From NCBI GenBank assembly GCA_027941995.1, contig CP115966.1, positions 682,001 to 746,000 of the forward strand: a stretch of 64,000 bases of DNA, given 5' to 3'. Shown in pieces: positions 18,510 through 26,495 of the stretch (positions are counted from its first letter, which is position 1; every line of letters begins with the position of its first letter). Both the position numbers and the translations under genes were made by a program. Below the pieces are notes generated by a model. It was given only the letters and a program-made list of their open reading frames with translations. It was not told the origin of the DNA and ran no database searches. The stretch comes from Erythrobacteraceae bacterium WH01K. GTDB lineage: Bacteria; Pseudomonadota; Alphaproteobacteria; Sphingomonadales; Sphingomonadaceae.

Positions 18510-19270
18510 GGCCGTCTCTTCACTCTGCGCGGCGTCCAGTCGCTGGGGGTCCGCCGGTCCGACAATGCATAGCGCAGGCTGGCCCCGATCATGAGCGCGG
18601 CAAGCGCGATGATGCCGATGGCCCAGACCGAGTGCGGCAGCAGCAAGGCAGCCTCCAGCTGGCCGGTGTCGGACAGCATCGTACCGCCCCCGATATCGGC
18701 CTGTTCCATCAGCAGGTAATCCCACTGCGCGAACATGGACAGCGCCGCCTGCAGGCCCAGCAATTGTAGGGCGAAACGGTCCAGCCACGGCGTGCCCTTC
18801 AGCCCGATCGCGACGAGCCCCGCAGCAATCAGCGGCAGGACGATCCAGCCGGTCATCCCGTCGACCCAGATGACGGTCGACAGCGCGATGGCAGCGGCCA
18901 GCAGGAACAGGGCCGGCTTCCACGCGCGCGGATGGGCCGAGGCGATGATCAGCAGCGAACCGATAATGGCGGGGCCGATGGGACCGGCTGCGCTGATGGT
19001 CGCTTCCTTCAGCCGCGTACCGCGCAGGGGGCCGTAGGATTCCGCAACGCCCGATCCGTCGGGGAAGAGGACCAGCCGCTCGAAATCGTAACCGACCATG
19101 ACCGCCGCCATGCCGTGGCCCATTTCATGGAACCAGGTCGACAGGATCATGAAGGGGTAGAGCACCAGATTGCCGAGCGGCAGCAGCGGCAGCACGATCA
19201 GGATCGCGCCCGCCAGCACCAGCGCCTTGATATGCTCTTCCCGAGAATGGATGGCCGGCGTCAGGCCCAC
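18506..19270 (-). CDS. Site-2-protease-like M50 membrane metallopeptidase
   Basis: A 254-residue polytopic membrane protein. The zinc-binding motif HEMGH (HExxH) sits in a hydrophobic segment, STWFHEMGHGMAAVMVGYDF, near residues 47-66, and the following SAAGPIGPAIIG resembles the glycine-rich second segment of M50B-like proteins. No PDZ domain is present. Substrate unknown. GTG start at 19270 has only weak ribosome-site sequence. It lies between gyrB (stop-to-start 15 bp) and the PerM-like gene (ATGA overlap), so it may share gyrB transcription. Confidence 0.82.
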   Translation of the reverse strand: MGLTPAIHSREEHIKALVLAGAILIVLPLLPLGNLVLYPFMILSTWFHEMGHGMAAVMVGYDFERLVLFPDGSGVAESYGPLRGTRLKEATISAAGPIGPAIIGSLLIIASAHPRAWKPALFLLAAAIALSTVIWVDGMTGWIVLPLIAAGLVAIGLKGTPWLDRFALQLLGLQAALSMFAQWDYLLMEQADIGGGTMLSDTGQLEAALLLPHSVWAIGIIALAALMIGASLRYALSDRRTPSDWTPRRVKRRP

Positions 19271-21949: not shown

Positions 21950-22669
21950 GTGCGTTTGCGCTTCATGGTAATGATGCTGGTCGTCGTGGGGGTGGTGTCG
22001 GGCGCGCTGGTCGCCGGGGCGGCATGGGGCGTCTTCGGGCGGATGAAGCCTGCCACGGAAGGGTTCCTTATCGCGCTGGCGGGCGGGGCGTTGCTGGTAT
22101 CCGTGGTGAGCGAACTGGTCGAACCCAGTATCGAGGCAAGCTCCGTCTGGATCGCGATGGCCGGGCTTGCCGCAGGCGCAATCGTGTTTTCGCTGCTCGA
22201 CTATTTCGTCGACGAGAAATGGGGCAGCGATTCAGGCGGCGGCCTGCTGGCGGCCATTACACTGGACGGCGTGCCGGAAAACCTCGCGCTGGGCGTCGCG
22301 CTGATCGGCGCTGGTCCGGCGGAAATCGCGGCGCTCGCCGGGTCCATCCTGCTCTCCAACCTGCCCGAGGCGGCCGGCGGCGCACGGGAAATGGCAAGCG
22401 GGGGGCGTTCGCGCGGACGGGTCATCGGGCTGTGGATCGCGACCGCCGTGCTCCTGTCCGCAGCAGCCGTCGTGGGGAATGTCGCCCTTGCCGGTGCGGG
22501 CGACGAAACGCTGGCCGTCATCCGCTGCTTTGCCGCAGGGGCGGTGGTCGCCAGCCTCGCAACGGAGGTGTTTCCCAAGGCCTTCCGCGAAGGCCATCAC
22601 TGGGCCGGAGTCGCGACGGCGCTGGGGGTCATCCTCGCCTTCGCGCTCGGCTCTCTTTCCGGGGGCTGA
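21950..22669 (+). CDS. ZIP-like divalent metal transporter, variant active site
   Basis: A membrane protein of about 235-239 residues with seven or eight hydrophobic segments. TLDGVPENLALGVAL and LLSNLPEAAGG align by pattern with the two metal-site helices of ZIP transporters (usual HNxPEG), but the histidine of the first is replaced by Asp and the second lacks a His too. Transport of Zn, Fe or Mn is therefore inferred with caution. Start is uncertain: GTG 21950, ATG 21965 and ATG 21971 are all in frame and none has a clear ribosome site. Divergent from gyrB. Confidence 0.72.
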   Translation: MRLRFMVMMLVVVGVVSGALVAGAAWGVFGRMKPATEGFLIALAGGALLVSVVSELVEPSIEASSVWIAMAGLAAGAIVFSLLDYFVDEKWGSDSGGGLLAAITLDGVPENLALGVALIGAGPAEIAALAGSILLSNLPEAAGGAREMASGGRSRGRVIGLWIATAVLLSAAAVVGNVALAGAGDETLAVIRCFAAGAVVASLATEVFPKAFREGHHWAGVATALGVILAFALGSLSGG

Positions 22670-22727
22670 GGCGGCGCAAGGCCTGCGCGCTCTCGACACG
22701 GGGTCGGTGCGCCCTAAAAGAAAGCGC

Positions 22728-24287
22728 ATGACCGACCACGACATCGCCGGACAGGCATTCCTCGAAAAGCCCTTCCATTCCTTCAGCGAAATGCTGGGGT
22801 TCTGGGCCAGGCGCCAGCCGGAAGCGATTGCCCTGCGCGATACCTCGGCAGAGCTGAGCTGGTCCGCGATGCATGACCGGATAGAACGCATTGCAGCGCG
22901 CCTGGTCGAAACCGGCCTGGAGCGCGGGCAGTCGGTCGCCATCCTCGGCACGTCGGGCGTTCCCTATGCGCTCGTCTTCCTCGCCGCGGTGCGCGCGGGC
23001 GGGGTGGCGGCCCCGCTCACCACCAGCGCCAGCCCGCAGCAGCTGGAAGGCATGGCCCGCGATTCGGGCGCGGCGCACCTGTTCATCGACCGGACCAAGC
23101 TTGGCGAACTGGGCGAGGATTTCATGCCCGGCCTGCAGCGCATCGTGCTGGACGAGGAACTGGACGCCTGGATGGCGCCCGAAGGGACGGTGGCCCCGCC
23201 CGTCACGCCGGAGAAATCGGACCCGTTCAACATCATCTATTCCAGCGGCACGACCGGTACGCCCAAGGGGATCGTCCATTCGCACGCCATGCGCTGGACG
23301 CAGTTCGCGGCTACGGGGCTTTCCTACCTGAAGGCCGGCGTCGATCCCGTCAGCCTCGCCTCCACGCCGCTTTACTCAAACACCACCATGGTCGCCTTCC
23401 TCCCCATCCTGCTGGCCGGCGGGACGGTGAACATCATGGGCAAGTTCAAGACGGTGGACTGGCTTGCCACCGCGCAGCGGTTCGGCGTCGCCATCACGAT
23501 GCTGGTCCCGGTGCAATACCAGCGGCTGATGGACGAGCCGCGCCTGGACGAATTCGACCTGTCCGCGCTGAAGCTGAAATATTGCACCAGCGCACCGTTC
23601 CCCGCCGCGCTGAAGCGGCAGGTGCTGGAGAGGATGCCCGGCGCCCTTATCGAGATTTATTCCATGACCGAAGGCGGCGTCGTCTGCCTGCTTCAGGCGC
23701 ATGAATTCCCGGACAAGCTGCATACGGTGGGCCGCCCTGCACCCAGCAGCGAGCTGATGGTGCTGGACGACGACGACCGGCCCGTACCCGCAGGCGAGCC
23801 GGGCAATCTGATTGGCCGATCCCAGACGATGATGGCGGGATACAAGAACCAGCCCGAAAAAACGCGCGAGGGATACTGGATCGATCCATCATCGGGCGAG
23901 GTCTGGCAGCGCATGGGCGATATCGGGCGGGTCGATGCCGACGGCTTCGTCGAGCTGGTCGGCCGCGCGAAGGACATGATCATTTCCGGCGGCTTCAACA
24001 TCTTCCCCAGCGACCTGGAGGCGGAACTGGAAAAGGATCCGCGCGTGGCGGAGGCGGCCGTGATCGGCGTGCCCAGCCCGCAATGGGGCGAAACGCCGCT
24101 GGGCTTCGTCCGGCTGGAGGCAGGCGTCAGCCGGGACGAGGTTGCCGATATCCTTGCCGGCGTGAACGGCAATGTCGGCAAGACGCAGCGCTTGTCGGAC
24201 CTTCATGCCATCGACGAGATGCCGCGCAGCCATATCGGCAAGCTGCTGAAGACCGAATTGCGGGACATGGCGGACCGGCTGGCTTGA
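22728..24287 (+). CDS. AMP-binding acyl-CoA synthetase
   Basis: ANL-superfamily ligase of 519 residues that activates a carboxylate via acyl-AMP to acyl-CoA. Motifs: IYSSGTTGTPKGIVHSH (P-loop), YSMTEGG, GDIGRVDADG and the hinge GRAKDMIISGGFNIFPSD, ending in the lysine-containing RSHIGKLLK. Lower similarity to the ligase at 1088-2785 shows it is not a recent duplicate. Substrate not predictable. Start ATG at 22728; upstream sequence has only AAAAGAAA as a weak site. The next gene is 0.6 kb away. Confidence 0.88.
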   Translation: MTDHDIAGQAFLEKPFHSFSEMLGFWARRQPEAIALRDTSAELSWSAMHDRIERIAARLVETGLERGQSVAILGTSGVPYALVFLAAVRAGGVAAPLTTSASPQQLEGMARDSGAAHLFIDRTKLGELGEDFMPGLQRIVLDEELDAWMAPEGTVAPPVTPEKSDPFNIIYSSGTTGTPKGIVHSHAMRWTQFAATGLSYLKAGVDPVSLASTPLYSNTTMVAFLPILLAGGTVNIMGKFKTVDWLATAQRFGVAITMLVPVQYQRLMDEPRLDEFDLSALKLKYCTSAPFPAALKRQVLERMPGALIEIYSMTEGGVVCLLQAHEFPDKLHTVGRPAPSSELMVLDDDDRPVPAGEPGNLIGRSQTMMAGYKNQPEKTREGYWIDPSSGEVWQRMGDIGRVDADGFVELVGRAKDMIISGGFNIFPSDLEAELEKDPRVAEAAVIGVPSPQWGETPLGFVRLEAGVSRDEVADILAGVNGNVGKTQRLSDLHAIDEMPRSHIGKLLKTELRDMADRLA

Positions 24288-24316
24288 TCGAATGATGCCC
24301 GGCTGCTTTCGCGCAT

Positions 24317-24356
24317 GGTCCGCCGGTCTTGGGGGAGGGGGGTATACCGGCGGACC
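24317..24356 (-). ncRNA. Candidate sRNA hairpin with C/U-rich loop (unit 3)
   Basis: A perfect 11-bp stem: GGTCCGCCGGT (24317-24327) with ACCGGCGGACC (24346-24356). On the minus strand the loop reads ATACCCCCCTCCCCCAAG; the CCCTCCC...CAAGAC portion resembles the loop of unit 1. It lies 30 bp after the stop of the acyl-CoA synthetase gene, so a plus-strand role in ending that transcript is the alternative, but no T-run follows on either strand. Confidence 0.38.
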
Positions 24357-24482
24357 ACACGCTGTCGCCCCTTCATGAGGGGCGGCGACCCGGAAGGACC
24401 GGGTAAGGCTGCTATCCTGATCCCCGAGCAATACGGCCGGCAGGGCGGCGCGGTTACAGCAGGGTGCAGGGAAATCCATGAA

Positions 24483-24565
24483 ACTCGAAACCGCGCGGGA
24501 TATGGACCCGGTCGAGGGGGGAGAGAGGAGAAAGGATCTCACACCACCGCGCGGCCTGTTCGAGT
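24483..24565 (-). ncRNA. Candidate sRNA hairpin with C/U-rich loop (unit 2)
   Basis: ACTCGAA (24483-24489) pairs with TTCGAGT (24559-24565), and CCGCGCGG (24491-24498) with CCGCGCGG (24547-24554), a 15-bp interrupted stem. On the minus strand the loop includes CCTTTCTCCTCTCTCCCCCC, again Shine-Dalgarno-complementary. The same design as the other two hairpins suggests tandem copies of one RNA element. Confidence 0.38.
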
Positions 24566-24686
24566 GAATGCCGCCCGCTCCGCCCGGCAGTCCCGGATTT
24601 CGCGGCAGCAACACCTGGCCGGGAGAAATGTCTCGCCGGGCCTGCAGGAAACCGGCCTTGGGAACCGGTTCTAAACCTGCTGAAGG

Positions 24687-24735
24687 GCCGGACGGGGTGT
24701 CTTGGGAGGGAGAGAGAGGACTGCCACCGCCCGGC
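24687..24735 (-). ncRNA. Candidate sRNA hairpin with C/U-rich loop (unit 1)
   Basis: Read on the minus strand, GCCGGGCGGTG pairs with CACCCCGTCCGGC (one wobble, one bulge) around a 25-nt loop containing CCTCTCTCTCCCTCCC and CAAGA. Such a loop is complementary to Shine-Dalgarno sequences. The hairpin begins about 5 nt after the predicted start site of the promoter at 24746-24774, and a second hairpin (AACCGG with CCGGTT, 24653-24671) follows. The strand choice rests on the promoter and on loop composition only. Confidence 0.4.
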
Positions 24736-24745
24736 TTCGGGGAGC

Positions 24746-24774
24746 TATCTAGCGTTGCATGGCAGTAACCAAAA
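24746..24774 (-). promoter_or_regulatory. Putative sigma-70-like promoter for minus-strand RNA
   Basis: On the minus strand TTTTGG (24769-24774) and TAGATA (24746-24751) are 17 bp apart. Transcription would start near 24739-24740, directly before the first C/U-loop hairpin. The -35 box is a weak match, so this is a suggestion from position and spacing. Confidence 0.35.
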
Positions 24775-24914
24775 GCGAGATAATCGCATCGTCTGTGCAG
24801 TTCTTTGCAACATAGAGCGTTGAAGTTCCTCGGGCGTCCTGCGGGGCTGGCGCGTCGAGCCGCATCCATGTGCCGCGCCTCGCTGGACAGGAATTGCACC
24901 CGCTCGTAACGCAC

Positions 24915-26495
24915 ATGGCCATGCAGCCAGACCATCTCCCCGATTCCATCCTCATCGTCGATTTCGGCAGCCAGGTGACCCAGCTGATAGCGCGCCGCGT
25001 GCGCGAAGCGGGGGTCTATTCCGAGATCGCGCCCTTCACGCAGGGGGAAGAAGCATTCGAACGCCTCCGGCCCAAGGGTATCATCCTGTCCGGTTCCCCC
25101 GCAGGTGTCCCCGAGGAAGGCAGCCCGCGCGCGCCCGACGCCTTTTTCGAGGCAGGCATTCCGGTCCTGGGCATCTGCTATGGCCAGCAGGTCATGACGC
25201 ACCAGCTCGGCGGCGAGGTGAGGCCGGGCCACGATACCGGGGAAGGCGGTGAATTCGGCCGCGCCTTCCTGACCGTGACGAAGGACTGCGCGCTGTTCGA
25301 CGGGCTGTGGCAGGAAGGCGAGCGGCACCAGGTCTGGATGAGCCACGGCGACAAGGTCACGCGCTTCGCCGACGGGTTCGAGATCGTCGCCACCAGCGAC
25401 GGCGCGCCCTTCGCTGTCATCGCCGACGAAAGCCGCAAGTTCTACGGCACGCAGTTCCACCCCGAAGTCGTCCACACGCCCGACGGGGGCAAGCTGATCG
25501 CCAATTTCGTGCGCCATGTCTGCGGGCTGGCCGGTGACTGGACGATGGCCGCCTATCGTGAAACGAAAGTGCGCGAGATCCGCGAACAGGTCGGCGACAG
25601 GAAGGTCATCTGCGGCCTGTCAGGCGGGGTCGACAGCTCTGTCGCTGCCATCCTGATACACGAGGCGATCGGCGACCAGCTGACCTGCGTCTTCGTCGAT
25701 CACGGTCTGCTGCGCCTGAACGAACGCGAACAGGTCGAGACCATGTTCCGCGACCATTACAACATCCCGCTGGTCGTGGTGGATGCGGAAGAGATGTTCA
25801 TGAGCGGCCTTGCCGGGGTCACCGATCCCGAGGCCAAGCGCAAGTTCATCGGCAAGACCTTCATCGACGTGTTCGAGGCCGAGGCGAAGAATGTCGGCGG
25901 CGCCGATTTCCTGGCGCAGGGCACGCTCTATCCGGACGTTATCGAGAGCGTCAGCTTCACCGGCGGGCCCAGCGTCACGATCAAGAGCCACCACAATGTC
26001 GGCGGCCTGCCCGAACGCATGGACATGGCGCTGGTCGAACCCTTGCGCGAGCTGTTCAAGGACGAGGTGCGCGAGCTGGGCCGCGAACTGGGCCTGCCCG
26101 ACATGTTCGTCGGCCGCCACCCGTTCCCGGGGCCCGGCCTCGCCATCCGCATCCCGGGCGAGGTGACGAAGGAGCGCTGCGACATCCTGAGGAAAGCCGA
26201 CGCGATCTATCTCGACGAGATTCGCAAGGCGGGCCTGTACGACGCGATCTGGCAGGCCTTCGCCGTGCTGCTGCCGGTCAAGACCGTCGGCGTGATGGGC
26301 GATGCGCGCACCTATGACAGCGTCTGCGGCCTTCGCGCCGTGACTAGCACCGACGGCATGACGGCCGACGTCTACCCCTTCGACGCCGCCTTCCTGACAG
26401 GCGTCGCCACCCGCATCGTGAACGAAGTGCAGGGCATCAACCGCGTGGTCTACGACTATACGTCGAAGCCGCCGGGGACGATTGAATGGGAGTGA
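24915..26495 (+). CDS. guaA: GMP synthase (glutamine-hydrolysing)
   Basis: Converts XMP to GMP using glutamine amide nitrogen and ATP, the last step of guanine nucleotide synthesis. The 526-residue protein has the class I glutaminase domain first ([21 protein letters not shown]; nucleophile in GICYGQQ), then the ATP pyrophosphatase P-loop [11 protein letters not shown], and the C-terminal dimer domain ending [13 protein letters not shown], which is the universal GuaA terminus. Start could be ATG 24915 or ATG 24921; no clear ribosome site. Preceded by the hairpin-rich tract, convergent with the DUF7662 gene. Confidence 0.97.

Follow-up and report, generated by a model that had tools for sequence, protein, structure and literature searches.

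The window analysed here, a 64,000-nucleotide stretch of Erythrobacteraceae bacterium WH01K (contig CP115966.1, positions 682,001 to 746,000), probably carries beside guaA a gene for a small regulatory RNA whose loops, judging from sequence, could pair with ribosome-binding sites. We give a probability of roughly 0.6 to the reading that this RNA is of a new multi-hairpin, anti-Shine-Dalgarno (anti-SD) type, that it is controlled together with suhB, and that it represses translation by pairing of its loops with Shine-Dalgarno (SD) sequences. We infer a noncoding transcript that would start on the minus strand just before the first hairpin (HP1), measure ~430–450 nt if it ends after the third (HP3), and run divergently from guaA under a control block resembling that of the organism's own suhB/mmgR. 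Its three hairpins are predicted to present C/U-rich, anti-SD-type loops in single-stranded form. By analogy with NfeR1, AbcR and suhB, these loops would pair with the purine-rich SD regions of several mRNAs and block their translation, which would make the RNA a multivalent companion of suhB and not a member of the suhB family. Because the upstream blocks are similar, timing of the array may be suhB-like.

Multi-hairpin anti-SD RNAs are already known from rhizobia and Rhodobacter; among the titles and abstract openings returned by literature searches, none describes the present locus. If the preferred reading is correct, a separate sphingomonad array with neither the canonical loop motif nor a DUF1127 partner would indicate convergent origin of this design, and a suhB-like upstream block on the array would point to a concrete suhB regulon.

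Three hairpins in a gene-free tract

Positions 24288-24920 of the window form a tract without genes between an acyl-CoA-ligase-like gene and guaA (Table 1). The first-pass annotation had placed three inverted repeats here, with CCCTCCC and CAAGA in two of the loops. All three are present on the minus strand at the positions claimed, with the bounds of HP2 and HP3 refined, and both motifs are indeed common to the HP1 and HP3 loops; the HP2 loop is without CCCUCCC. Each loop is pyrimidine-rich on the minus strand (C/U fraction 0.72 in HP3), and the HP3 stem comprises 17 pairs, including two G-U pairs on that strand.

Table 1. Features in and around the guaA-adjacent tract (window coordinates)
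Feature	Position	Strand	Remarks
Acyl-CoA-ligase-like gene	22479-24287	+	top family matches under the cut-off
HP3	24311..24362	-	loop AUACCCCCCUCCCCCAAG
HP2	24480..24566	-	bulged stem; loop UCCUCUCUCCCCCCUC
HP1	24687..24735	-	loop CUCUCUCUCCCUCCCAA; by position, HP-A of relatives
Conserved upstream block	24736..24810	-	aligned in 18 loci over 75 bp
-10-like hexamer TAGATA	24746..24751	-	17 nt past the -35-like hexamer; in the alignment, opposite ATTATT of relatives
-35-like hexamer TTTTGG	24769..24774	-	inside the aligned block
guaA	past 24920	+	NCBIfam GMP synthase, 790 bits

Relative to shuffled sequences, folding z-scores on the minus strand were -1.2 for HP1, -5.0 for HP2 and -6.4 for HP3; on the plus strand they were -0.4, -2.6 and -1.4, poorer for each hairpin. 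The tract from 24288 to 24760 scored -4.5. Background was drawn from 300 kb of the window's own genome, sampled on both strands (600,000 strand-bases), taking the best stem score of every pyrimidine run of at least 11 that contained CTCC or CCTC. The 65 background runs reached scores of at most 29.5. The window has 18 runs of this kind; of these, HP2 scored 43.5, HP3 43.0 and HP1 27.5, and one other run (19038-19087) scored 33.0. The stems of HP2 and HP3 exceed every comparable stem of the genome sample; HP1, with a score inside the background range, is by itself not beyond chance, and its support is comparative. A looser scan of the window picked up HP1 and HP3 within a set of 13 C/U-loop hairpins and missed HP2. 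No terminator was found in the tract by a scan with a loop limit of 8; in the same-genus relative G001, HP3 is followed on the minus strand by T6 (TTTTTT), which that loop limit prevents from being listed.

The genus of the window's own genome (G000) includes two relatives, G001 and G002. G001 keeps the three hairpins in the same order before guaA, with HP2 and HP3 stems that are altered yet still pair. Own arms of HP2 gave duplex energies of -43.7 (G000) and -40.0 (G001) versus -31.3 and -30.2 for swapped arms, and the corresponding values for HP3 were -35.1 and -33.3 versus -26.6 and -25.3. Among 15 HP3 pairs compared, two double-sided and three one-sided changes preserve pairing and none is broken. 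HP2 and HP3 of the two genomes together form 10 G-U pairs on the minus strand versus 2 on the other. The comparison supports the original proposal of a minus-strand RNA gene with anti-SD-type loops in tandem and a promoter directly ahead of HP1, the stem covariation coming from this one same-genus relative. No counterpart of HP2 or HP3 was found outside G000 and G001. After HP1, G001 has AACAGG without a small hydrophobic open reading frame (ORF); in G002 (L021/L121), a hairpin with the outer stem of HP1 is followed by an SD and a 27-aa ORF.

An upstream block and loop core shared with suhB

HP1 is preceded by a conserved block that contains a GTTGC..GCAAC-type dyad and a TTTTCKCAYTTG-type element, both degenerate in the window, plus a -10-like hexamer. 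The promoter-like pair that had been proposed to start transcription just before HP1 is confirmed in its coordinates and in its setting within a conserved block, but it is absent from the list returned by a sigma-70 consensus scan.

A sequence-only model of the block (R2) was built from aligned loci with no suhB row among them. At E up to 1, R2 gave two matches in the window's own genome: the array block, itself a training row (E 4.1e-11), and a segment at G000:C1:207374-207420 (E 3.5e-4) that ends 18 nt before suhB/mmgR. The latter gene (G000:C1:207277-207355, minus strand, L194) scores 41.0 bits with RF00519, exactly the gathering score. Across 34 genomes R2 yielded, besides full-length matches, 17 partial ones (E up to 0.02), all of which were examined; 15, from 14 genomes, are followed after ~10–25 nt by a suhB that reaches the gathering score. 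One exception (G016:C4) sits ~0.7 kb from guaA before a secreted-protein-like ORF, and the other (G010:C1:358360) precedes another short ORF. Given its occurrence before these non-sRNA genes (2/17) and before small ORFs, the block is not private to RNAs. By eye, array and suhB blocks of relatives commonly read GTTGC-N7-GCAAC, followed ~11 nt on by TTTTCKCAYTTG.

With E limited to 1e-4, R2 found matches in 52 of the 149 family genomes; in 35 of the 149, counted from the match list, the match covered at least 67 of the 75 positions. A less biased view of the hairpins comes from 22 full-length block matches that are not model rows, 15 of them with a locus and 14 readable. A C/U-loop hairpin begins no more than 8 nt from the block end in 8 of the 14 and lies within ~330 nt in 13; an A/G-loop hairpin occurs in one. 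Small ORFs, defined by ATG starts and a hydrophobicity cut, were found within 330 nt in three loci, and all 11 loci without one have a C/U-loop hairpin. Thus, the hairpin accompanies the block and the small ORF is not needed.

Apparently similar blocks (TTGC..GCAA plus TTTTCGCATTTG) were noticed upstream of UrcA-like genes for small secreted proteins at L136, L030 and L049. Another short ORF family (MxxFFKRVFNAYV..YPLPMxWTF) occurs at L176/L205 and L039, and its L176 member has the same upstream block. At L117 and L129, a block copy with a C/U-loop hairpin of its own lies past the small ORF.

The resemblance to suhB extends to the loops. CUCUCCC is the core of the unpaired suhB segment CAUCCUCUCCC (DNA: CATCCTCTCCC), which 14 of 15 suhB loci examined carry, and the HP1 loop holds this core. 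Of 22 pyrimidine tracts of HP-A, the first hairpin of relatives, 19 contain CUCUCCC; shuffling gave a mean of 4.2 and never reached 19 in 5000 rounds. When only loci detected through the block are considered, 7 of 8 tracts have it. Loop C/U fractions were 0.94 for HP-A and 0.86 for HP-B, a second hairpin of relatives, in sets chosen for such loops.

The block of GTTGC-N7-GCAAC plus TTTTCKCAYTTG may be the target of one regulator that drives both the single-seed suhB and the multivalent array. This broader proposal, which we put forward tentatively and at somewhat under even odds, also holds that array RNA of sister lineages encodes a membrane-type peptide of 26–28 aa and that the whole constitutes a new sphingomonad RNA family not descended from the cuckoo RNAs. 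PhaR/AniA is described in a passage of PMC12542648 as a repressor of mmgR in S. meliloti, and the window's own genome encodes PhaR (PF07879). Since no exact PhaR site was seen in the array block and the dyad spacing differs, PhaR/AniA is not claimed as the common regulator; NtrC is likewise unsupported. A PhaR-like sequence of YGCRNYGCR type, TGCACTGCA, lies in the promoter of the organism's own suhB, just upstream (L194).

Hairpins and a small ORF in other sphingomonads

In other sphingomonads, the block is followed directly by HP-A, to which the window's HP1 corresponds; an SD with a hydrophobic 26–28-codon ORF often comes next, and HP-B (stem GAGACGCGGCC..) is also frequent. The first hairpin would in such lineages form the 5' leader of the ORF; the window's lineage and several others have hairpins only. 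These loci were gathered from the guaA upstream regions of 80 named contigs and from family genomes. By reading, 18 of the 80 upstream regions, nearly all from the closest relatives, contain a convincing C/U-loop hairpin; in Novosphingobium, several loci carry the ORF but no such hairpin.

MAFFT left the HP-A stems unaligned, and arm swaps were used in place of pair counts from that alignment. Across 22 HP-A loci picked by hand, the averages were -23.2 kcal/mol for own and -14.3 kcal/mol for swapped arms (0 of 10000 permutations as good); in 12 of the 22 the own arm outdid every foreign one. This test is partly circular because HP-A rows were collected with hairpins in view; the comparison of G000 with G001 and the test on non-model blocks are free of that circularity. 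HP-B stems are nearly invariant over the outer 10 bp. Two HP-B pairs show double changes, a number reached in 17 of 500 shuffles; with stems that barely vary, HP-B covariation says little. Only 8 of 20 HP-B hairpins paired best with their own arm. Better folding on the sense strand was seen for 11 of 22 HP-A and 6 of 20 HP-B hairpins, a preference that is nil or contrary, and HP-B forms 24 G-U pairs on the antisense strand versus 8 on the sense strand. The exact HP-B pattern occurs in 2 of 149 genomes, with looser model matches in 10/59 at E up to 0.1. The HP-B model (R1) has no match in G000, G001 or G002, so HP2 and HP3 are not recognizable as HP-B.

At E up to 0.1, a limit that also admits weak hits within longer frames, a profile of the small ORF (A1) matched 51 of the 149 family genomes; G002 is among those matched, and neither G000 nor G001 has a match. 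Folding of 59 distinct ORF loci by a loose criterion (C/U of at least 0.65) placed a C/U-loop hairpin upstream of the ORF in 22 loci and downstream in 18; 32 have one on at least one side and 27 have none. Hairpins before the ORF were sought in 130 nt, and a few of the 22 have loops that are not anti-SD-like. The ORF family (26–28 aa, consensus MRxxAxxxxxxxxAxxxSGxxFxxTLx) has members at L035, L036, L038, L062, L064, L110, L113 and other loci. An SD is usual, the ORFs are often divergent from guaA, and L133 and L137 have them in tandem. Searches of Pfam and NCBIfam with three members gave no family above cut-off.

Known RNA systems and rival explanations

The first-pass annotation had likened the locus to the CcsR/cuckoo and suhB-type RNAs. 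By the features tested, the array is neither, and it would work, if at all, like them. Rfam, which presumably holds an alpha-r14 model, gave no family match for the window tract, and loci of 15 relatives likewise had none that reached the gathering level; the window tract matched neither suhB nor a cuckoo-type model even at E up to 10. Passages of PMC3927594, PMC7143759 and PMC10746234 describe the alpha-r14/cuckoo sRNAs (NfeR1, SmelA075/SmelA099; CcsR1-4) as having at least three hairpins, with stems that differ freely and an unpaired anti-SD sequence in every loop. The array similarly has three hairpins with C/U-rich, anti-SD-like loops and stem change in one relative, but its spacing is longer and the identical CCUCCUCCC of each loop is lacking. 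This cuckoo motif (DNA: CCTCCTCCC) is absent from both strands of the whole window and from all 46 hairpins inspected (0/22 HP-A, 0/20 HP-B, 0/4 HP2/HP3 loops). Among fetched loci, with 15 background stretches left out, a single CCTCCTCCC lies next to a block, within a small additional hairpin at L117; no other occurrence is near a block. The CcsR/CIN1 locus is portrayed in passages of PMC10253847 with a co-transcribed gene for a short DUF1127 protein, an RpoHI/RpoHII promoter and stress induction. In the window's own genome DUF1127 (PF06568) has no match at E up to 0.01, and relatives have the small hydrophobic ORF instead. Membership in the CcsR/cuckoo group is unsupported, the loop motif and the DUF1127 gene both being missing.

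The suhB parallel survives in part. The array shares with suhB/mmgR (RF00519, alpha-r8) a similar upstream block, in its own genome and in relatives, and the same CUCUCCC core; it is not a suhB homologue. The suhB model spans 77 positions and includes a single unpaired anti-SD segment and a U-run terminator, whereas the array holds CUCUCCC in hairpin loops and has no match to the suhB model (41 bits). AbcR1/AbcR2 (alpha-r15) are encoded by tandem genes and have C/U-rich anti-SD motifs in unpaired regions, according to a passage of PMC7143759; they differ in being two separate sRNAs of 114-120 nt, and the window tract has no such Rfam match. Passages of PMC7143759, PMC10746234 and PMC6563040 describe or predict pairing of the anti-SD segments of NfeR1, AbcR and suhB with mRNA translation starts; the last of these papers also assigns SuhB a part in catabolite repression in Sphingopyxis.

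The hairpins could instead be the altered leader or trailer of the small hydrophobic ORF, with the anti-SD loop of HP-A pairing in cis with an SD (e.g., ACAGGAG) tens of nucleotides downstream and controlling peptide translation; the window would then have lost the ORF and kept the hairpins as leftovers. Consistent with this are the 22 of 59 ORF loci with a preceding hairpin, the ORF and hairpin in G002 of the same genus, and the AACAGG of G001 after HP1, though the ORF is absent there. We nevertheless consider a cis-acting leader unlikely, in view of the 11 ORF-less block loci that all have the hairpin and of the compensated HP2 and HP3 stems in two genomes where the ORF profile finds nothing. 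Alternatively, an RNA-binding protein such as Hfq, RNase E or another factor might dock on the C/U-rich loops, which would make the RNA a protein sponge or processing scaffold and not an antisense RNA. Loop letters and length do vary while staying C/U-rich, a looser pattern than a fixed seed would leave. Enrichment of CUCUCCC beyond composition, its identity with the suhB segment, and the binding of an mRNA 5' UTR with Hfq described for Sphingopyxis suhB in a passage of PMC6563040 make this distinctly improbable.

That the hairpins are palindromic protein-binding sites or mobile repeats in DNA, with no role as RNA, is very unlikely. The near invariance of HP-B stems would suit such elements, but BLASTN of the own genome found no second copy, only short matches with E of 0.05 or worse; HP2 and HP3 stems change in compensating pairs, G-U included, and loops after the block are C/U and rarely A/G. 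Finally, the functional strand could be plus, with G-rich loops at the 3' end of the acyl-CoA ligase mRNA or in a guaA leader. Each repeat also folds on that strand, both flanking genes lie on it, and the folding energies of HP-A and HP-B in relatives show no strand preference. Against a plus-strand function, which we likewise regard as very unlikely, stand the much better folding of HP2 and HP3 on the minus strand, their G-U pairs, the conserved block lying upstream in the minus direction, and the block-hairpin-ORF unit at L120 and L133, where no guaA start occurs within 1.5 kb on each side. The preferred reading of a minus-strand anti-SD RNA accords with the presence of Hfq in the window's own genome.

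The Hfq gene (G000:C1:1871237-1871662, minus strand, L226/L227) is a single 211-aa frame with two tandem Hfq domain matches. Hfq with two domains has precedents among sphingomonads. An unconnected hairpin away from guaA (L159, G016:C2:829089-829131), which counts among the CCTCCTCCC occurrences and matches the HP-B model, has a 12-bp stem and a loop with CTCCTCCCCCCTCTCTC, and is perhaps another anti-SD RNA.
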